Shown in pieces: positions 15,591 through 61,711 of a DNA stretch of 64,000 bases (positions are counted from its first letter, which is position 1; every line of letters starts with the position of its first letter). The stretch comes from Roseivirga ehrenbergii (GTDB taxonomy: Bacteria; Bacteroidota; Bacteroidia; Cytophagales; Cyclobacteriaceae). Below the pieces are notes generated by a model. That model was not told where the DNA came from. It saw nothing but the letters and a program-made list of their open reading frames with translations, and made no database searches. Location: contig NZ_LQZQ01000002.1 in NCBI RefSeq assembly GCF_001593005.1, positions 124,001-188,000 on the forward strand. Direction: 5' to 3'. The translations under genes were made by a program, and so were the position numbers.

Positions 15591-15660
15591 TTGAGTGGAA
15601 GAACAGGTTTTTTAAGAAATGATTCTTTTTACCGCTAAGAACACTGCGTTTTACTAAACT

Positions 15661-15757
15661 TAAATCGAAGCGCAATCGCTCGGTTGCACCGAGTGATGAC
15701 TAGAAGTTTGGCTTCAAGCCATCAAGCTAAAAGTCACTCGGCAAAGCCAAGCGACTG
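15661..15757 (+). repeat. 97-bp structured repeat, copy A
   Basis: This is a full copy of the dispersed element. The left arm CAATCGCTCGG...CCGAGTGATG and right arm GTCACTCGG...CCAAGCGACTG form an imperfect inverted repeat, and a TTGGCTT/AAGCC hairpin lies in the centre. It is preceded by an ACCGC(A/T)AAGAACAC-type leader. Confidence 0.85.
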
Positions 15758-15811
15758 AGAGAGAAGCTTTGAAATTTTCAGCAATACAAGTAAGATTTTA
15801 TTTGGTGAAAC

Positions 15812-15849: not shown

Positions 15850-15887
15850 GTTTTTTCACCGATAAGAACACTGCGTTTCATTAAGCT

Positions 15888-15984
15888 TAAATCGAAGTGC
15901 AATCGCTCGGTTGTACCGAGTGATGACTAGAAGTTTGGCTTCAAGCCAACAAGCTAAAAGTCACTCGGCAAAGCCAAGCGACTG
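15888..15984 (+). repeat. 97-bp structured repeat, copy B
   Basis: It has the same length and orientation as copy A, and differs at only a few positions. The central TTGGCTTCAAGCCAA hairpin is perfect here. Confidence 0.85.
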
Positions 15985-16005
15985 AGAGTTGATATAAAAG
16001 CGAGA

Positions 16006-51943: not shown

Positions 51944-52122
51944 GGCTATATCATTCGTAATTGCAGTAAATATAGAAAATTATTTTATTCGTAATTGCAG
52001 TTTTTATTAAAAAAGCTTTGAACCGCAAAGAGCGCAGAATTACGCAAAGGGAATATCGGGACTTGTATTGAGAATAACTGAGAGCTCTTTAACCACAAAG
52101 TAAACTAAGTTTCGAAAAAGGT

Positions 52123-52219
52123 TAAATCGGAGCGCAATCGCTTAGTTGTACCGAGTGATGCCTAGCGTTTTGGTTTGAAGCCAACGTACTACGACTCACT
52201 CGGCAAAGCCAAGCGACTG
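52123..52219 (+). repeat. 97-bp structured repeat, copy C
   Basis: It has the same length and orientation as copies A and B. The left arm reads ATCGCTTAGTTG, a slightly weakened stem. Confidence 0.85.
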
Positions 52220-52304
52220 TTGAGGAATCCTTTTACCGCAAAGAATACGGAGTTACGCGAAGGTGGTATTGGGTAATAGCCAACAAGCCAAGTCATGCTG
52301 TAAG

Positions 52305-52399: not shown

Positions 52400-52439
52400 T
52401 GTTTTTTAAACCGCAAAGGGCGTTTAAGGTGGCAAAGGT

Positions 52440-52536
52440 TAAATCAGCGCGTAATCGCTCGGTTGTACCGAGTGATGCCTAGCGTTTTGACTTGAAGCCA
52501 ACGTACTACTAGTCACTCGGCAAAGCCAAGCGACTG
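52440..52536 (+). repeat. 97-bp structured repeat, copy D
   Basis: It starts exactly 317 bp after copy C. Both arms are well preserved. Confidence 0.85.
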
Positions 52537-52658
52537 TTGAGGAATCCTTTCACCGCAAAGAACACGAAGTTTTGCGAAGGCGGTATTGGGACGTACATTA
52601 GCTATAAAACCAAAGCTAGCTTTTGGGTAATAGTTAACAAGCTCAGTCATGCTGTTAG

Positions 52659-54295: not shown

Positions 54296-54685
54296 GAAGA
54301 TGCGTTTTTAAACTTGAAATAAAGTTAGTAAAAATGAAGTTTAAACCGGTAGACTTAAAAGAGCATTTAACCCCAAAGTGCGCTGAGTGACTCAAAGTTT
54401 AAATCGGAGCACAATCGCTCGGTTGGACTGAGTGATGCCTAGCGTTTTGGCTTGAAGCCAATGTACCACGAATCACCCCGCAAAGCCAAGCGACTGTTGG
54501 AGAATACCTTTTGATCCAACTTATCGAAGCTTAAATCACTGTTAATGAGTAATGGTGTGGTGAGAAACAAAATTGAACTACAACTTACTTTTTAGCTTAG
54601 TTCTGTGTTGCCACACGTTTTTAATTTAGAAAATTATTATTCTTTATTTTTTTTATTAATCATTTAAAGAATAGTAATAAAATAA
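54296..54685. other. Intergenic region with repeat copy E
   Basis: It contains one full 97-bp repeat and AT-rich sequence toward the LLM oxidoreductase gene. It marks the left border of the accessory cluster. Confidence 0.6.
54400..54496 (+). repeat. 97-bp structured repeat, copy E
   Basis: It is full length with several substitutions in the arms (TTGGACTGAGTG in the left, CACCCCGC in the right). Confidence 0.8.
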
Positions 54686-55654
54686 CTAGATAGCAACAAA
54701 CTCTGGTAAAACAATTTCTTTAATTTTAACAATAGCCTCACTTACTGGTGTTTCAGATTTTCTGAGGTTGATAGCCATATGATTGACTCCCACATTTTCA
54801 TATGCTTTTAAATATTCGGTAAGATGATTGATACCTACTGTACCACCAAAACGTTGTGGTTTAAAAGTCGCATTGTCGTCTTTGGACAGGTTTAAATGTA
54901 TAGCTGAAATATAAGGTTTTGCCGCTTGGTCTTCGTCATACAAAGCATTACACCAGTACTTTCTGTTCTCCAAAGTTTCGGCAACAGGTCTTGGATAGTT
55001 AAACCAAGCTTGAGCGTTTTTGGCAATCCAATTAATACTTTGTCCAGAATGACCAGCTACGACTAGCGGAATGTCTTTTTTCGGTTTAGGATAAACTTCT
55101 ATACCGTTAGTTAAAAAATCGTATTTAGATTTTAAATCGCTATTGGTTTTCCAAGCTTCCTTAATGATGTCAAGATTATTTCTAAAGATTTCCGGTCTTT
55201 TATTATAATCGATATTATACATCGGGAACTCCACAGGTCTGTCTCCCAAACCTAAACCTAACAAAAGTCTACCGTCACTTAAATTTTCAATAGTCGCAGC
55301 AGCCTTTGCCAATTTTATAGGCTGTTGTAAAGGTAGTACAATGGCTGCAGTACCCAACAAAATGTTTTTAGTTGCTGCAGCTAAATAACCCAAGTACGGT
55401 AGGGTGTCAAACAATTGTGCACCATCACCAAAATTTGGGTCGTACACAGGAACATCTCGCACCCATAAAGCAGCAAATCCTGCTTCGTCAATTTGTTGGG
55501 CCAATGCTAAATGGTTAGAAATGTCTGGCACGCCAAAAGGTCTGTTGTCTTCCAAACGTTTTCGATTTCCTTCTGATGACCAATCATTATCTAAAGGAAA
55601 CTCTATACCAAGTGTCATTTTACTTGGCTTGTATAGTTTATCAAATGGATTCAT
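54686..55654 (-). CDS. LLM-class (luciferase-like) oxidoreductase
   Basis: The 322-residue TIM-barrel protein shows the luciferase-like monooxygenase pattern: DEAGFAALWVRDVPV, LLGTAAIVLPLQQPIKLAKAAATIENLSDGR, LLLGLGLGDRPVEF and KPKKDIPLVVAGHSGQS. These enzymes use FMN or coenzyme F420; in Bacteroidota FMN is expected. The substrate is unknown. It lies downstream of the aldo/keto reductase, but a 13-bp perfect hairpin separates them, so it may receive only read-through transcription. Confidence 0.9.
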   Translation of the reverse strand: MNPFDKLYKPSKMTLGIEFPLDNDWSSEGNRKRLEDNRPFGVPDISNHLALAQQIDEAGFAALWVRDVPVYDPNFGDGAQLFDTLPYLGYLAAATKNILLGTAAIVLPLQQPIKLAKAAATIENLSDGRLLLGLGLGDRPVEFPMYNIDYNKRPEIFRNNLDIIKEAWKTNSDLKSKYDFLTNGIEVYPKPKKDIPLVVAGHSGQSINWIAKNAQAWFNYPRPVAETLENRKYWCNALYDEDQAAKPYISAIHLNLSKDDNATFKPQRFGGTVGINHLTEYLKAYENVGVNHMAINLRKSETPVSEAIVKIKEIVLPEFVAI

Positions 55655-55665
55655 AGTATGTGTTT

Positions 55666-55703
55666 AAAATCATCAGGTATCTGTGAGGACACCTGATGAT
55701 TTT
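55666..55703 (-). terminator. Strong hairpin between the aldo/keto reductase and LLM genes
   Basis: AAAATCATCAGGT (55666-55678) and ACCTGATGATTTT (55691-55703) form a perfect 13-bp stem with a 12-base loop. On the minus strand it ends in TTTT. Confidence 0.8.
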
Positions 55704-55708
55704 CAAGA

Positions 55709-56650
55709 TTAGTTATTCCAGATACTATCTGCGGTGTAGGGTCCGTTTTCAACTTCCCAAAATTTGCCATCAATAAAACGGTGTCCTTTGTCTAGATCCT
55801 TCAACAACACTATATCCTCTTCAGTAAGTGTATGGTTTAAAGTCTCTAAATTCTGAAGCAATCTCGCTTCATTTATAGATTTAGGAATGACCGCAATACC
55901 TCGTTGCACCGTATACGCCAATGCTACTTGCGCAGGGGACATATTTCTTGCGTTGGCAATGTTTTTTATCGTATCATTTTCCAACAAACGTAGTTTGGAA
56001 TTTTTATCTACAAGCGAACCTAATGGTGCATATGCCGTTAGATGCATATCAAAATGCGAGCATAATGCTTTTAATTCTTTCTGTTGTAAAAACGGATGCA
56101 TTTCTACTTGATTCATCTCTGGTTGATGCACTGCAGTCGCTATTATTTCTTTCAACTGATTCTCATTGAAATTGCTCACGCCAATATGCTTTGCAAGTCC
56201 TTGCTCTAAAACAGCTTCCATCCCTTTCCAAGTATTGGTTAATGGCACTTCTGATAATGGAACAAAATCAGATGCTTTTTCTGGCATTTCCGTTCCTTTT
56301 TTAAGAGCGACAGGCCAGTGGATAAGATACAGGTCTAGATACTCTAGCTGTAAATCTTCTAAAGTCTGGTTCAGTGCAGGAATCACATTATCTTCACCGT
56401 GAGAAGCATTCCATAATTTGGAAGTCACCCATAAATCTTCACGCGTAACCAAACCTTGTTTTATCGCATCGGCAATGGCATTACCTACTTCTTTTTCGTT
56501 ACCGTAAGCCGCAGCACAATCAATATGTCTGTATCCTATTTTAATAGCGGAAAGTACTGCATTGTACACTTCATTTGGTTCAGATCTAAATGTTCCTAAA
56601 CCTAAAATTGGCATTTCGTCGTTATTTCTAAATTTTAATGTAGTCATCAT
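55709..56650 (-). CDS. Aldo/keto reductase
   Basis: The NADPH-dependent TIM-barrel oxidoreductase reduces aldehydes and ketones. The catalytic tetrad is visible: Asp44 and Tyr49 in HIDCAAAYGNE, Lys78 in WVTSKLW and His111 in YLIHWPV. The family signature LGLGTFRSEPNEV and the NADP-binding IPKSINEARLLQNLE are present. The length of 313 aa is standard. The start (ATG, followed by a second ATG) lies seven bases after the MFS stop, so both are co-transcribed. The reduction of a toxic carbonyl is a plausible role within this cluster. Confidence 0.93.
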   Translation of the reverse strand: MMTTLKFRNNDEMPILGLGTFRSEPNEVYNAVLSAIKIGYRHIDCAAAYGNEKEVGNAIADAIKQGLVTREDLWVTSKLWNASHGEDNVIPALNQTLEDLQLEYLDLYLIHWPVALKKGTEMPEKASDFVPLSEVPLTNTWKGMEAVLEQGLAKHIGVSNFNENQLKEIIATAVHQPEMNQVEMHPFLQQKELKALCSHFDMHLTAYAPLGSLVDKNSKLRLLENDTIKNIANARNMSPAQVALAYTVQRGIAVIPKSINEARLLQNLETLNHTLTEEDIVLLKDLDKGHRFIDGKFWEVENGPYTADSIWNN

Positions 56651-56657
56651 TATATAT

Positions 56658-57866
56658 TTATATTTTTTCTTTTTTGAATAAAACTATGGTCAACAAGAAT
56701 CCTACGATTACTAGTATACCACCTACCCAAGGCGTCGCTTCAATTCCTAAGCTCGATTCTACAACCATTCCGCCTACATAAGCACCAATAGCAATACCTA
56801 CATTAAATGCTGCAATGTTCAAGGCAGATGCTACATCTTCGGTTCCTGGCAAGTATTTTTCAGCCATTTTCACAACATATAATTGCAATGCAGGTACGTT
56901 TGAAAAGGCTAATATTCCCATAAAAAACAAGGTTATTATGGCAAAAATCTGACTAGAAGCGGTAAAGTATAACACAAACAATACGATGGCTTGTAAAGCA
57001 AACATGACCAATAAGGCTTTTCCTGGTTTGTTGTTAGAAACTTTACCACCTATGATATTCCCAATCGCAATGGCGATACCATAAATTAAAAGAAATACAC
57101 TAGTCATATCCGAAGAGAAACCGGTTACTTCTTCCAACAAAGGTGTTAAGTAGGTAAAAGTGACAAACGTACCACCATAACCAAATGCAGTAATGGCTAA
57201 CACCAATAAAATAGACGGATTCTTAATCACTTTTAATTGGTCTATAAGACGTAATGGCGCTGATTGTTTTATATTTTTAGGAACCAACGCTAAACTAGCT
57301 ATTGCACCTACTAATCCTAATAGGGCAACACCAATAAAGGTTGCTCTCCATCCAAAATTCTGACCGATATATGTTCCTAAAGGCACACCAGTTACAATAG
57401 CCACGGTAAGACCAGCAAACATTATGGAAATAGCAGTTGCTCGCTTATCTTTTGGAACCAAACTAGCTGCAATAGTAGAACCGATAGAGAAAAATACACC
57501 GTGTGCAAAACCTGTTACCACTCTTGATAATAGCAACAACTCAAAACTTGGTGAGATAGCTGCCAATCCGTTACCAATTATAAATAGTAACATAATACCC
57601 ATTAATAACTGTTTTCTAGGAATTTTACCTGTTAAGGCAGTTAATATGGGTGCACCAATGGCAACACCAATGGCGTACAGACTAACTAATAGTCCTGCTG
57701 ATGTTAATGAGGTGCCTAGGTCACTTGCAACGGTAGATAATAAACCTACAATTACAAATTCCGTTGTTCCTATGGCAAATGCACTAATGGTCAATGCCCA
57801 TAATGCGGCTGGTAGACTCTTCTTTTTGGCTACCGTAGTATCTCTATGTATTGTTGATGTTTCCAT
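56658..57866 (-). CDS. MFS transporter (DHA1/AraJ-like)
   Basis: The 402-residue protein has 12 hydrophobic segments and the drug:H+ antiporter 1 signatures AIGTTEFVIVGLLSTVASDLG in helix 1 and GAPILTALTGKIPRKQLLMG between helices 2 and 3. This subfamily exports sugars, arabinose-like compounds or drugs. It starts at ATG, 26 bp after the cyclase stop. In this cluster it most likely exports or imports the small molecule acted on by its neighbours. Confidence 0.92.
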   Translation of the reverse strand: METSTIHRDTTVAKKKSLPAALWALTISAFAIGTTEFVIVGLLSTVASDLGTSLTSAGLLVSLYAIGVAIGAPILTALTGKIPRKQLLMGIMLLFIIGNGLAAISPSFELLLLSRVVTGFAHGVFFSIGSTIAASLVPKDKRATAISIMFAGLTVAIVTGVPLGTYIGQNFGWRATFIGVALLGLVGAIASLALVPKNIKQSAPLRLIDQLKVIKNPSILLVLAITAFGYGGTFVTFTYLTPLLEEVTGFSSDMTSVFLLIYGIAIAIGNIIGGKVSNNKPGKALLVMFALQAIVLFVLYFTASSQIFAIITLFFMGILAFSNVPALQLYVVKMAEKYLPGTEDVASALNIAAFNVGIAIGAYVGGMVVESSLGIEATPWVGGILVIVGFLLTIVLFKKEKI

Positions 57867-57892
57867 AGTTTCTAAGCTTTTTTTTGTTACTG

Positions 57893-58831
57893 TTATTTAA
57901 TAGCAACAGGATTTATTTGTACTTGTGTAGAGCCTTCATATAAAGGATGACCCAACACAAAAAGGAATTCCCAAGCTTTATCCTCAACCAATTCATCTAC
58001 AAGAATATTTTCCAATACTTGTACACCGTATTCGGTTGCCATCATTTGATTTACAGGGAAAGAAAGTGAGCTGTTTTCGTGTGGCACCGCTTCAAAAGAC
58101 CAGTTATCAGCACCTGCTGCTACAATTCCTTTTTTACCTAAGTAATGTGCAGCTTCAGTACCAATTCCAGGTCCGCCAGCTAGGTAACGTTTGTCATCTT
58201 TACCCATTAATTTTGTCCATCCTGTGTAAAACAGAACCACATCTCCTTTACGGATTTCAATGCCTTGTTTTTTAGCTACTTTTTCAATGTCTTCTACCGT
58301 AAAAACAGTGCCTTCTTTTATAATATCTTGATTGTAGTAAGAGCGCATATCTAGCACAACACCTCTAGTAACAATTGGGGGTAATTTTTCTAGACCTAAT
58401 TTTTTTACACCAGAAACGGTTAAAAAATCTTCCACTTTATGTCCGTTATAATGCACATTGTCTCTACCATAATGTGCCAATCCGTTTATTTGAGATCCAA
58501 CACCTGTCCAACCAATTAACTGGTCATCTACGTAAGTGAATTTGTTGGAACCTGCAGCAGCAGTTTCTGGTTGTACAGTTTCAATGTGAAAGTATCTGTG
58601 ACGGAAAGCTGCAGTTTGTGCATTTACCACCATTCCTAAGCGGTATACTTTTCCTTTTTTAACCAATTTTACGGCATCTAAAACCGTTTCTTCATTCAAA
58701 AGATTTAACGCACCAATTTCGTCATCTGCTCCATAAGGTGATGTTGGTACTTGTTGTGCATTTGTTGTTACAGCAGTAAAAAGCGTAGCTGCTAACGCAA
58801 TTGTTTTTAATGTATTTACTATTGTTTTCAT
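57893..58831 (-). CDS. Cyclase-family metal-dependent hydrolase, secreted
   Basis: A signal peptide (TLKTIALAATLFTAVTTNA) precedes a cyclase domain (PF04199 type): EIGALNLLNEETVLDAVKL, GSQINGLAHYG, ITRG-like IVTRGVVLDM, RKGDVVLFYTGWTK and GIGTEAAHYLGKKGIVAAGAD. Relatives include kynurenine formamidase and other amidohydrolases using a divalent metal. The His-rich loop HYGRDNVHYNG differs from the short-form HxGTHxD motif, as in the long-form family. It heads a unit with the MFS and aldo/keto reductase genes and is preceded by a candidate operator at 58881-58923. Confidence 0.9.
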   Translation of the reverse strand: MKTIVNTLKTIALAATLFTAVTTNAQQVPTSPYGADDEIGALNLLNEETVLDAVKLVKKGKVYRLGMVVNAQTAAFRHRYFHIETVQPETAAAGSNKFTYVDDQLIGWTGVGSQINGLAHYGRDNVHYNGHKVEDFLTVSGVKKLGLEKLPPIVTRGVVLDMRSYYNQDIIKEGTVFTVEDIEKVAKKQGIEIRKGDVVLFYTGWTKLMGKDDKRYLAGGPGIGTEAAHYLGKKGIVAAGADNWSFEAVPHENSSLSFPVNQMMATEYGVQVLENILVDELVEDKAWEFLFVLGHPLYEGSTQVQINPVAIK

Positions 58832-58880
58832 TTTAATATGTTTTAAATTTCTTATACAAATTTCCGTTTAAATCGAGGGC

Positions 58881-58923
58881 TGTGCGAGGATGTAGATCAC
58901 CATTTTAAAGTGATATATGTCAC
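58881..58923 (-). promoter_or_regulatory. Candidate operator of the cyclase unit
   Basis: This 43-bp block is shared with 60628-60670 (TGTGCGAGGA, ATCAC, GTGAT-TAT-TCA in the same spacing). Its core is GTGA-TATATG-TCAC (58910-58923), a CRP-like palindrome. It lies 50 bp upstream of the cyclase ATG, opposite the cluster's Crp/Fnr-family regulator. Binding is inferred. Confidence 0.7.
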
Positions 58924-58963
58924 ATTTAATACTGCTCATACATCACTTTACTTTTAATTTTAT

Positions 58964-60061
58964 TTAATCTTGAAGCTTCATTTTTAGCACCAAGTAAGGC
59001 GGTTTACTGGCGTCTTTTCCTTCATTTAATAAAGGCAGATTGTGAAGCTGATTTGCTACGATATACAAGTAGTTTCGGTGTATGGCAACACCATCGGGCC
59101 AAGACAAGTCTTTTTTGGATTGCGCAATGGTTTTCATTCCAGCAGGCGTACTTTCTACAATGGCCGAATTTTCAACATCGGTTACATATACTTTTCCGTT
59201 TGCACCCACTTTAAATCCGTCAGATTTTGGTTTGTTGGAATAAAACTCGATGTATTTATTCAGGTCAATATCTTGCTTACTTTCATCTGCTAATACAGCA
59301 GACGGAATGCGGTAAATTTTAGTATTACCCATTGCACCATAGTAGATGTAGTTGTTTTCGTCATCAATAGAAATTGGGTTTAAAGGATATCTTGGCTGAA
59401 TGGTAGTACCGTCATTTCTTTTGTTGGATACTAATCTGCCGTGAATTTTCACTGGTTCATCAGCAGGTAAAAATGAAGCATTCCCTTCCAAAACACGTCT
59501 TATATAACCCGTTTCTAAGTTAATCACGACAAAAGCTGGTGCAACTGGCGGATTTAAAGCATCTGTCATATCTGCAATTACAGCAGTGTTGTTTTTCACA
59601 TCAATCACAAAATCCTGTAAAAAAGGTTTTGTTGATAATACCGTATTTGGAATAGGAAAAACCTTTGTTACATTACCGGTTACCAAATCAAAACCCACCA
59701 ATTTTGGAACCTGATTTTGTTTTACGTTGCCCATATCCAATACCCAAAGAATTCCGTTGGCATCGGCTTGAATTCCGATAGTTGAATTGATCCCTTTTAA
59801 GCTCCCGTTTTCTGGTTTTACGATCCATTCTTTATCACCAAAAGGAATGGCTTCTCCATTAGGCAAAATTTCTTTCACCATATATTTTGAAGCGCTTAAG
59901 GCACTCATTGTTACAAATATTCTTCCATCGGTAGAGACTGTAATATTACCAGGTCGAGACTCAGGAAATGTTGCTATGGTTTCCAATTGTGCTTGTGCCA
60001 GCATTGTAAAATTCATTACAAATGTCAAGAAGACTGTTTTTATAATTGTTATCGTTTTCAT
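58964..60061 (-). CDS. Yellow/major royal jelly protein-like secreted protein
   Basis: The 365-residue protein has a signal peptide (IIKTVFLTFVMNFTMLAQA) and a six-bladed propeller with bacterial MRJP/yellow features: FPESRPGNITVSTDGRIFVTM, GILWVLDMGN, PFLQDFVIDVKNNTAVIAD, ISIDDENNYIYYGAMGNTKIYR, and SWPDGVAIHRNYLYIVANQLHNLP. Related propellers act as lactonases or ligand-binding proteins; bacterial members are uncharacterised. It follows the cupin gene by 33 bp and is probably co-transcribed with it. Function is unknown beyond secretion. Confidence 0.85.
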   Translation of the reverse strand: MKTITIIKTVFLTFVMNFTMLAQAQLETIATFPESRPGNITVSTDGRIFVTMSALSASKYMVKEILPNGEAIPFGDKEWIVKPENGSLKGINSTIGIQADANGILWVLDMGNVKQNQVPKLVGFDLVTGNVTKVFPIPNTVLSTKPFLQDFVIDVKNNTAVIADMTDALNPPVAPAFVVINLETGYIRRVLEGNASFLPADEPVKIHGRLVSNKRNDGTTIQPRYPLNPISIDDENNYIYYGAMGNTKIYRIPSAVLADESKQDIDLNKYIEFYSNKPKSDGFKVGANGKVYVTDVENSAIVESTPAGMKTIAQSKKDLSWPDGVAIHRNYLYIVANQLHNLPLLNEGKDASKPPYLVLKMKLQD

Positions 60062-60094
60062 CGTTATTGTTTTTAAAAATTGAATGTGATTTGA

Positions 60095-60577
60095 TTAGTT
60101 GCCTAAAAATTTCTTTTGGGTTGAAGGATCTACCCAGATAACATCGCTAGGGTCTCTGGCAATGGCATCAAAAACGAGTACATCTAAGGGGCCTTCTAAA
60201 ATTTTTCCGTTTCCGTGTGCTGTGCCTTTCCCCCAAAAAAGTAAGTCGCCTTTTCCTGCAACAACAGGCCCTTTGTCAGCCACATAAAATTCTGCTTTGC
60301 CATTTAAGATGTAGAGGTAGGCATCAGATTTTGCGTGGTAGTGCATAGGCACTTCGTCATACAACCTGAAGATTCTAACGCCTGCGTGTTCACGGTCTAT
60401 TAATCTGATGTCTTTGATGATACCATTATGACTTTTAGGTAGTAGCGTTACATATTCATCAATATTGATAATACCGTAGGAGTTACCTATTAACGGTCTC
60501 TTATCTTCTTGCGCATAGGTGTTAAAGCCTATGGCAATTACTGTAAATAATAGAAAAAGTGTTCTTGTAGTTTTCAT
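60095..60577 (-). CDS. Secreted cupin
   Basis: A signal peptide (residues 1-22, ending NTYA) precedes a single cupin domain with VPMHYHAKSDAYLYILNGKAEF and GKGDLLFWGKGTAHGNG, giving two or three His metal ligands. The acidic ligand position holds Asp or Tyr rather than the usual Glu. Secreted cupins are rare compared with cytoplasmic ones. It heads a unit with the MRJP-like gene and has two CRP-like palindromes upstream. The role may be isomerisation, dioxygenation or ligand binding. Confidence 0.88.
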   Translation of the reverse strand: MKTTRTLFLLFTVIAIGFNTYAQEDKRPLIGNSYGIINIDEYVTLLPKSHNGIIKDIRLIDREHAGVRIFRLYDEVPMHYHAKSDAYLYILNGKAEFYVADKGPVVAGKGDLLFWGKGTAHGNGKILEGPLDVLVFDAIARDPSDVIWVDPSTQKKFLGN

Positions 60578-60627
60578 AGTACATTGTATTTAATTGTTCG
60601 ATACAAAATTCTATGAAAACCAAGATG

Positions 60628-60670
60628 TGTGCGAGGACATACATCACGGATTTTTTGTGATGTATATCAA
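60628..60670 (-). promoter_or_regulatory. Candidate operator of the cupin unit
   Basis: This is the second copy of the 43-bp block, with core GTGA-TGTATA-TCAA (60657-60670), 51 bp upstream of the cupin ATG. The equal distance in both units supports a shared promoter-operator design. Confidence 0.7.
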
Positions 60671-60675
60671 TCTTG

Positions 60676-60697
60676 AAAAGTGATTTAGGTCACTTTT
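60676..60697 (-). promoter_or_regulatory. Second CRP-like palindrome upstream of the cupin unit
   Basis: AAAAGTGA-N6-TCACTTTT is perfectly symmetric and matches GTGA-N6-TCAC. It overlaps the last two bases of the regulator gene. Confidence 0.55.
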
Positions 60698-61268
60698 AGC
60701 TGTTAAAACGACTTAAAGTCTCTCTGGATACGCCTAAATAAGAAGCGATTAATTTTTTAGGAACGCGTTGAATCAATTTTGGAAGTTTGTTTAATAGGTA
60801 CTCATACCTGCTTTCTGCGGTCATAGTAAGCAATGAAAGGATTCTTTGTTGCAGATTGATATAACCGTGGTTGGATTTAATTCTGAAAAAATTGGCAACC
60901 GCAGGTACTTCAAAGCAAATCTTTTCCCTATTCTCTAGGGATAAACAGAAGAACTCAGAATCTTCAAGACAATCCACAAAAATAGTCCCGGGTTCTTGAT
61001 GTTGAAAAGCACAATGGTCGCTCACCCAATAGTCTTCCATTGCAAATTGAAGAATATGTTCTTTACCTTTATCATCTATAGAGTACGCTTTTACTAAACC
61101 TTTGATAATCCAATATTCAAAATCTACAGGTTGGCCAACTTGAATTAAGAATTGGTGTTTTTTAAGGCTTTTGTATTCAAAATGAAGTCGAATAAAATTC
61201 CATTCGTCATCAGTTATTGAAGATACTTCCTCAAAATGGCGTCTTAGTAAATGAAACTTCTCTTCCAT
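60696..61268 (-). CDS. Crp/Fnr-family transcriptional regulator
   Basis: The 190-residue protein has an N-terminal cyclic-nucleotide-binding-like beta-barrel (FLIQVGQPVDFEYWIIKGLVKAYSID in pieces, then ILQFAMEDYWVSDHCAF) and a C-terminal helix-turn-helix with PKKLIASYLGVSRETLSRF. The cysteine cluster of Fnr is absent. This is the type of small Crp-like regulator frequent in Flavobacteriia and Cytophagia. It lies 118 bp upstream of the cupin gene on the same strand, so it likely controls the cluster through the GTGA-N6-TCAC sites. Effector unknown. Confidence 0.9.
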   Translation of the reverse strand: MEEKFHLLRRHFEEVSSITDDEWNFIRLHFEYKSLKKHQFLIQVGQPVDFEYWIIKGLVKAYSIDDKGKEHILQFAMEDYWVSDHCAFQHQEPGTIFVDCLEDSEFFCLSLENREKICFEVPAVANFFRIKSNHGYINLQQRILSLLTMTAESRYEYLLNKLPKLIQRVPKKLIASYLGVSRETLSRFNS

Positions 61269-61403
61269 AAAGTGAATTTACTCTTACTTTCTGGATAAGA
61301 AAAAACTTTACATTTTTCTTGTCTTCTGAGCGTTCCGTTTTCATTAATGTTTTCGTTTTTCTCAAATTTAGGGCACCTATTTGTGTCGCTTATGATTAAG
61401 GGC

Positions 61404-61463
61404 GTGATAGGGTTTTGGCTTCAAGCCAACTTAAACTAGTCACTCGGCAAAGCCAAGCGATTG
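61404..61463 (+). repeat. 97-bp structured repeat, partial copy F
   Basis: Only the right half is present, including the TTGGCTTCAAGCCAA hairpin and CACTCGGCAAAGCCAAGCGA arm. It marks the right border of the accessory cluster. Confidence 0.75.
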
Positions 61464-61498
61464 CTATATTCTTAAACTACCTGAATGGAGAATTATTC

Positions 61499-61711
61499 CT
61501 ACCCAGCCAATTCATCGCAATAAAAACCTTGGCTGGTCAATATAGTAATAACGGTTTCGGGGGCTACTTCTTCGGTTTCAACCCGTAAGATTTTATCGCA
61601 GTCTTCTAGGTCAAAATTCCACTCTTCGCTAGGCAATAAGATATTCAAAAATGAGCCCACCTGCCGCACTTCTTTTTTACTGGCTACGGAAGTTTTAAAG
61701 ATATGAACCAT
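61499..61711 (-). CDS. Small conserved-type protein downstream of the sigma factor
   Basis: The 70-residue protein (MVHIFKTSVASKKEV, LPSEEWNFDLEDCDKILRVET, VITILTSQGFYCDEL) has the beta-alpha-beta order and length of a ferredoxin-like fold such as heavy-metal-associated domains. It lacks the CxxC metal site. It starts at ATG, 37 bp after the ECF sigma gene and on the same strand. A regulatory or metal-independent role is possible; I do not recognise a named family. Confidence 0.6.
   Translation of the reverse strand: MVHIFKTSVASKKEVRQVGSFLNILLPSEEWNFDLEDCDKILRVETEEVAPETVITILTSQGFYCDELAG

Follow-up and report, generated by a model that had tools for sequence, protein, structure and literature searches.

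The 64,000-nucleotide stretch of the Roseivirga ehrenbergii genome analysed here (the window) contains, on the minus strand between positions 54686 and 61268, a module of seven genes, encoding a Crp-like regulator, a cupin, an MRJP/Yellow-type propeller, a "cyclase", a transporter of the major facilitator superfamily (MFS), an aldo/keto reductase (AKR) and an LLM-class oxidoreductase (Table 1). We think it probable that this module is a self-regulated electrophile-resistance operon, which spreads between Bacteroidota, at least partly as one very large integron gene cassette. An earlier note on this DNA had delimited the cluster and named its gene families: all seven open reading frames (ORFs) were recovered at the coordinates it gave, and Pfam and NCBIfam profiles, evaluated against the family cut-offs, agree with its assignments.

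The same note had taken the cluster for acquired DNA, kept as one unit elsewhere. This is borne out: transfer of the 6.6-kb seven-gene unit as a block is strongly supported. A pattern scan of a collection of species genomes led to 23 loci, 18 of which are near-identical, with cyclases 96-98% identical, and belong to Flavobacteriaceae (12 named genera and one further member), hosts which we take to be mostly marine. The whole block is colinear in 17 of the 18, at 89-92% DNA identity and with sharp ends, and the order of all seven genes is kept in as many; rare adjacency in other genomes, which the earlier note would have held against a common unit, was thus not observed. In L033 the AKR gene is split in two ORFs, while a Maribacter metagenome-assembled genome (L025, 6260-12167) lacks the AKR and LLM genes and has a displaced regulator gene, about 1.4 kb separating it from the cupin gene. 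The two relatives nearest by flanking proteins, G005 and G014, are both devoid of the module: the sigma-factor and nucleotidase genes that flank it here are about 530 bp apart in G005, 1130 bp in G014 and 7.5 kb in the window, and the flanks of the relatives align up to 61500 and resume from 54356 or 54395.

Similarity of the module is far out of step with that of its hosts. The rpoB genes of the 17 complete hosts are only 66-70% identical to that of the window's genome; between hosts, identity ranges from 88 to 94% for the module and from 73 to 94% for rpoB, and the two are weakly correlated (Spearman 0.20). Median ratios of nonsynonymous to synonymous substitution (dN/dS) lie between 0.025 and 0.13 for the individual module genes. 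The module tree is star-like, with good support for 3 of its 15 inner branches. Each of these joins different genera (Kriegella with Arenibacter palladensis; Mariniflexile with Winogradskyella; Cellulophaga with Zobellia uliginosa and Olleya), and copies from one genus do not group together, be they the two from Arenibacter, the two from Maribacter or the three from Zobellia. On the strength of these identities, of the low dN/dS and of the cross-genus groups, the history of the module is one of repeated exchange under purifying selection.

Close homologues of the cyclase are absent from 18 other genomes of the same genus, five of which show matches at 30-34% identity, and just 3 of 395 genomes drawn from the phylum contain relatives at E ≤ 1e-60: the genome of the window itself and two whose relatives are 53-54% identical. 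The module DNA has no near-identical counterpart among plasmid or phage records; on plasmids, relatives of the cyclase (best 59.5%) have varied surroundings, which in some cases include AKR or zinc dehydrogenase genes, and of the six records viewed two carry no annotation at the site. Base composition agrees with acquisition, as the earlier note had judged by eye from the AT-richness of the cluster: its 1-kb windows have a G+C content of 0.36-0.38, poorer than most of the 54 windows preceding it (0.345-0.465, 7 of them below 0.382). At third codon positions G+C content (GC3) is 0.228-0.316 in six of the seven genes, under the minimum (0.332) of 33 background ORFs of at least 200 aa (mean 0.410, sd 0.035); at 0.369, the cupin gene does not fall below that minimum.

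A possible vehicle was found in Zobellia, Maribacter, Arenibacter and Algibacter genomes, which have direct repeats, about 140 or 210 bp long, next to a tyrosine recombinase. Self-comparison at four such places gave no inverted pair and 36, 18, 4 and 3 direct ones; at the place with three, two appear to fall inside genes. Each repeat starts with a variable box ending in AAC and ends with GTT and another variable box; the latter and the start box of the following repeat are often complementary (see GTTGTGCATA and TATGCACAAC), and complementarity of this kind is a hallmark of integron gene cassettes. A covariance model of these attC-type sites, R2, was built from nine short array sites, without any module sequence. 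In the 18 module loci and the window, R2 yielded 20 matches at E ≤ 1, all in module orientation; at E ≤ 0.01 there are 15 matches, in 6 of the 18 loci. The model found nothing in other loci totalling 400 kb, made up of 12 chosen stretches and of 8 that surround four module copies of the other kind. Of 16 places near recombinases outside the model, 10 gave R2 matches at E ≤ 0.01; among the six misses, L091 has a match at E 0.013 clipped by the contig start, and L103 and L080 lie at contig ends. At the four model places and these 10 others the array, as read from coordinates, points away from a recombinase within about 4 kb.

Boxes agree at 5 or more of 7 positions in 15 of 22 neighbouring attC pairs, against 8 of 68 non-neighbours; this test used 37 of 50 matches, leaving out 13 that were single, on the mirror strand or weaker, and its script misplaced a few boxes, those of L023 and L033 among them. 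Altogether, attC-type sites near a XerA-like recombinase occur in 12 of the 18 hosts and in the window's genome, the recombinase being broken in the latter and a fragment in one host. Folded as DNA, single attC sites are moderately stable (z -1.2 to -2.8; for L020 the folding covered 112 of 205 bases). As a lead only, 35 direct pairs in 12 of the 18 module loci compare with 4 such pairs spread over 3 of the 12 stretches chosen from four host genomes, the duplicated promoter of the module being excluded except in L020, where it makes up the single pair; inverted pairs are absent from both sets. A scan for attC ends by base pairing was abandoned, as it gave no separation (133, 134 and 130 for arrays versus 112 places in controls).

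In three of the 18 hosts, Arenibacter echinorum (L020), Cellulophaga fucicola (L023) and Maribacter stanieri (L033), attC-type sites in array orientation bound the module on both sides. R2 matches adjoin it on either side in L020 and L033, the upstream ones at E 0.0065 and 0.016, respectively; in L023 the downstream site was detected by R2, the upstream one by eye and repeat. In L020, the sequence before the module reads ...CCGTTGCCACACATTTGAC and that after it ...CGTGTGGCAACAACGTG, where the attC starts. The bases after GTT match the cassette's own R'' box at 7 of 7 positions in L020 and L023 and at 5 of 7 in L033, and the cassettes measure, from GTT to GTT, 6948, 6852 and 6852 bp in L020, L023 and L033, respectively. 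For comparison, attC-type repeats are spaced by a median of 943 bp over 40 intervals, a single one of which, 8204 bp with a site possibly missed, exceeds the module cassettes. The 3' box is retained in L029 (GTGTGGCCAAC) and in the window (GTGTGGCAAC). Five copies of the module, those of L020, L023, L033, L029 and the window, end with a box starting with GTGTGGC; since these copies come from different genera, the cassette end is probably ancestral to several of them. Within the module region of the window, the best match to the attC model, obtained with filters off, spans 54560-54619 and is weak (14.5 bits, E 0.041). Judged by the retained box and this match, the window copy looks like a decayed cassette insertion. 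The cassette interpretation is strong for the three hosts and suggested for the window copy; L026 and L029 have attC matches nearby, and no matched boundary pair.

Several results weigh against the view of the module as a cassette. The default attC search of the window gave no match, and both cassette boundaries are found in just 3 of the 18 loci. Eight others (L021, L024, L027, L028, L030, L031, L032 and L037) lie among, or share, a different repeat family, described below as family (ii), and seven of them have no attC match, L027 having one at E 0.0038. Neither attC match nor family (ii) was found in L022, L025, L034 and L035, and L019 has only a weak attC match (E 0.52). No recombinase lies inside the 18 module loci; three of the seven recombinase neighbourhoods first examined, that of the window's genome included, show no repeats by BLAST; and the integrase-specific additional domain (patch III) is absent from the ten array recombinases. 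Given the differing contexts of the remaining loci, cassette transfer is established for some hosts only. The scarcity of double boundaries, the eight loci in another repeat context and the star-like tree in which few groups are supported, as expected from recombination between copies, would all be accommodated if the block had moved mainly by natural transformation, conjugation or homologous recombination, its capture between attC sites in a few hosts being incidental. We hold this to be rather unlikely, because the same GTGTGGC box ends the module in five copies, the window's included. Weak attC matches lie directly downstream of the module at 14297-14419 in L027 and 14168-14307 in L019.

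The recombinases of the arrays are of a particular type. NF040815 (XerA, "site-specific tyrosine recombinase/integron integrase") is the best NCBIfam match of all ten, five of which pass its cut-off. All ten remain under the cut-off of the integron-integrase family TIGR02249, which they always match in two stretches, skipping about positions 179-239, a segment which we take to be the IntI-specific domain. Seven of the ten, as translated, bear an N-terminal extension of about 85-110 aa, the other three having been translated from the match start only. A recombinase of the array type (at least 168 bits) is found in 16 of 19 genomes; of the remaining three, one has a 111-residue match at 54% identity, and two, including the host of L033, have XerC/D-level matches only. 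The window's genome keeps a broken copy with an internal stop (C45:710528-711148), followed 0.9 and 2.0 kb downstream by two attC sites, whose boxes match at 7 of 7 positions; the whole tract, G000:C45:710528-713304 (L085/L086), has the appearance of a decayed integron. The IntI-specific domain serves as a criterion in PMC9668308 and PMC2426708, and PMC9668308 and PMC8618304 already mention integrons in Bacteroidota, whose presence in the phylum is therefore not new. There is a near-even chance that marine Bacteroidota possess an integron class of their own, with a XerA-like recombinase lacking the IntI-specific domain, which would mobilise regulated operons between genera and distant lineages, among them this seven-gene cassette of about 6.9 kb conferring electrophile resistance.

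Two further repeat families surround module copies. The earlier note had the cluster bordered by structured repeats, and a palindrome of about 100 bp does lie on each side of it, one copy being partial; the presumed vehicle, the attC-type ends, is a different one. This family occurs at 9 or more places, in two clusters, of the 4.24-Mb genome, with the best strand identical in all nine, a lower bound as 150 of 710 candidates were scored. In the nearest relative, which lacks the module, a strong copy is found about 1.8 kb from the site, along with a weak one (14.1 bits, E 0.028) at the site itself, so that the palindromes look resident, and not part of what moved. As a vehicle the flanking palindromes (model R1) were dropped for this reason and because, by eye, they have no GTT end. 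In the window, palindromes lie at 15659-15760, 15886-15987, 52121-52222, 52438-52539, 54398-54499 and 61386-61460.

Family (ii) is made of repeats of about 165 bp, in the same orientation, around Zobellia-type copies (L054/L055, L056/L057, L058/L059 and L060/L061). In genomes G059-G062, all matches found come from about 20 kb of one contig, apart from a short one in G060; the scoring covered 40 of the 52-77 candidates per genome. The repeats have no attC match, no link to a recombinase and no Rfam match at the gathering score (one chance-level match, E 0.87). Comparison with the arrays beside the recombinases of these genomes revealed no array-type similarity, giving one 84-bp match in G062 and none otherwise. 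Downstream of the module in Zobellia uliginosa (L055, G059:C9), translations suggest, by eye, helicase-, restriction-specificity- and RelE-like genes between direct repeats, an arrangement as in a defence or accessory array.

As for function, the gene families and their surroundings argue, with moderate strength, for an inducible operon that would detoxify electrophiles, quinones or other reactive carbonyls being the likeliest targets. The regulator exceeds the cut-off for PF00027 and reaches 19.9 bits against a cut-off of 27 for PF13545; the propeller scores 90.6 bits against 19.8 for PF03022. Export of the cupin, MRJP-like and cyclase products is predicted from signal-like N-termini judged by eye. 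The cyclase lies above the cut-off of PF04199, a family including kynurenine formamidase and isatin hydrolase, whose metal-binding motif is HxGTHxD. This motif is replaced by TGVGSQINGLAH in the window: where the aligned proteins of L003-L005 (THMGTHIDALNH) have H, H and D, the module cyclase has G, Q and N.

The conserved promoters and the neighbours of related genes favour such an operon. Pseudoalteromonas carries a divergent version of the set, MRJP-cyclase-MFS-LLM-AKR, accompanied by a zinc-type dehydrogenase (weak quinone-oxidoreductase match); it lies near a LysR regulator gene and has no Crp-like or cupin matches within the locus. The regulator, whose constant presence the earlier note had proposed to check, is found in all near-identical copies and is missing from this divergent one. 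Two other cyclases (52-53%) have AKR and Crp-like (29%) genes nearby; around one of them, L128, Pfam recognises Flavodoxin_2, ABM, DJ-1, AKR, glyoxalase, CMD, DoxX and zinc-dehydrogenase neighbours. A Flavodoxin_2 gene lies beside the cyclase in L036 and, by eye, in L038. Upstream of the module in Zobellia uliginosa are an N-ethylmaleimide-reductase-like gene (below cut-off), an Ahr aldehyde reductase gene (above cut-off) and three MRJP-like genes (28%).

Promoter regions are conserved before the cupin and the cyclase genes, in place of a single start for all genes or of the independent promoter for each gene that the earlier note would have held against its view. The cupin-side region, with 81% of positions invariant, is more conserved than the coding genes of the module (65-76% over 18 copies), and the two regions resemble each other in 17 of the 18 host loci. 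Both contain a GTGA-N6-TCAC site, which we read as a Crp-type site. The motif is found at 3 places in the window, one of them outside the module, versus 0.75 expected, a count attained in 5 of 100 shuffles; in the genome, GTGAYNTANATCAC occurs at three distinct places, two of them the module promoters, and is not enriched, the reversed control also giving three.

The earlier note had proposed a system that opens or hydrolyses a ring compound outside the cytoplasm and handles the products inside. Read as catabolic, the operon would take up and degrade such a compound, and exported enzymes, a transporter and two oxidoreductases would suit this route. Metal-dependent ring opening is doubtful, given the replaced ligands, and opening by this cyclase is not supported; the MFS protein is nearest to efflux-type families, the block contains neither an uptake-receptor gene nor a route into central metabolism, and the neighbours in relatives resemble electrophile-stress genes. 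We regard catabolism as improbable. An efflux-type transporter, together with the oxidoreductases and exported enzymes, might instead make or modify a small secreted compound and export it, which we judge very unlikely, as no scaffold-forming enzyme (polyketide synthase, non-ribosomal peptide synthetase, terpene synthase) or peptide precursor is among the seven families. Detoxification of electrophiles has points to answer as well: the cyclase may be non-catalytic; its 81% homologues in L036 and L038 stand without the other module genes, except for a 26% Crp-like gene in L036; and at the L040 cyclase locus the other module genes are absent too. The step from gene families to substrate is, in any case, inferred.

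Under the proposed reading, the XerA-like recombinase would act in the manner of IntI, excising and inserting the cassette at attC sites folded from single strands. The Crp-like protein would sense the stress and bind the GTGA-N6-TCAC sites of both promoters. Outside the cytoplasm, the compound may be converted or bound by the three exported proteins (cupin, MRJP-like propeller and cyclase-fold protein); what enters would be expelled by the MFS pump and reduced inside by the AKR and LLM enzymes.

Table 1. Position of the module genes and associated features in the window
Feature	Position	Strand	Remarks
Crp-like regulator	60696-61268	-	cNMP-binding domain; HTH_Crp_2 under cut-off; kept in 18 of 18 near-identical loci
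Cupin protein	60095-60577	-	Pfam; signal peptide by eye
MRJP/Yellow-type propeller	58964-60061	-	Pfam; signal peptide by eye; nearest solved structure 2qe8
"Cyclase" (PF04199), subfamily without canonical metal ligands	57893-58831	-	Pfam; signal peptide by eye; sole solved relative found, 5ibz
MFS transporter, probably efflux	56658-57866	-	Best NCBIfam matches CmrA, AraJ and PRK03545, all below cut-off
Aldo/keto reductase (AKR)	55709-56650	-	Pfam; under DkgA/DkgB cut-offs; nearest solved structures, aldehyde and aldose reductases
LLM-class oxidoreductase	54686-55654	-	TIGR03571 above cut-off (NCBIfam); nearest solved structure 2b81
Promoter region before cupin gene	60578-60695	-	Operator-like GTGACCTAAATCAC at 60680-60693; 81% of positions invariant in 18 copies
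Second promoter region, before cyclase gene	58832-58963	-	Operator-like GTGACATATATCAC at 58910-58923; 60% invariant
Cassette 3' box remnant, R'' GTGTGGCAAC	54607-54616	-	Identical to the R'' box of L020
Whole insertion	54356-61500		About 220 bp in place of the interval in relative G005
Palindromic repeat, copy E	54398-54499	-	Resident family, outside the module
Partial palindromic repeat, copy F	61386-61460	-	Same family as copy E

The arrays share with integron cassettes and sedentary chromosomal integrons the same-orientation attC-type sites, the GTT crossover, the matched boxes and the vicinity of a tyrosine recombinase, and integrase-free, CALIN-like arrays are also present. Cassettes generally contain one ORF, two or none being also observed, according to a figure legend of a review (PMC8618304). 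Unlike such cassettes, with one, rarely two, and usually promoterless ORFs, the module comprises seven genes, its own regulator and two promoter regions in about 6.9 kb. The array recombinases differ from NF040815, their best family match, in lying near attC arrays and, for seven of ten, in the N-terminal extension; they lack the IntI-specific segment as well. Related oxidoreductase families, and such neighbours in relatives, link the module to the detoxification sets for electrophiles, quinones and aldehydes of the NemA, Ahr and MdaB/YgiN type; unlike them, it adds three exported proteins and a Crp-like regulator. In the listed, open-access records, which leave aside subscription papers and preprints, there is no report of this gene set, of a seven-gene cassette or of the recombinase class, and no listed record on integrons combined with these host genera contains the word integron.

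Integrons are regarded as devices that shuffle single genes, and the special domain of the integrase as their defining feature. If the present interpretation is true, integron searches requiring the IntI-specific domain miss a reservoir, and operon-sized cassettes would offer a one-step route, across genera, for a finished stress-resistance pathway. An anonymous gene set would thereby become a testable resistance system.

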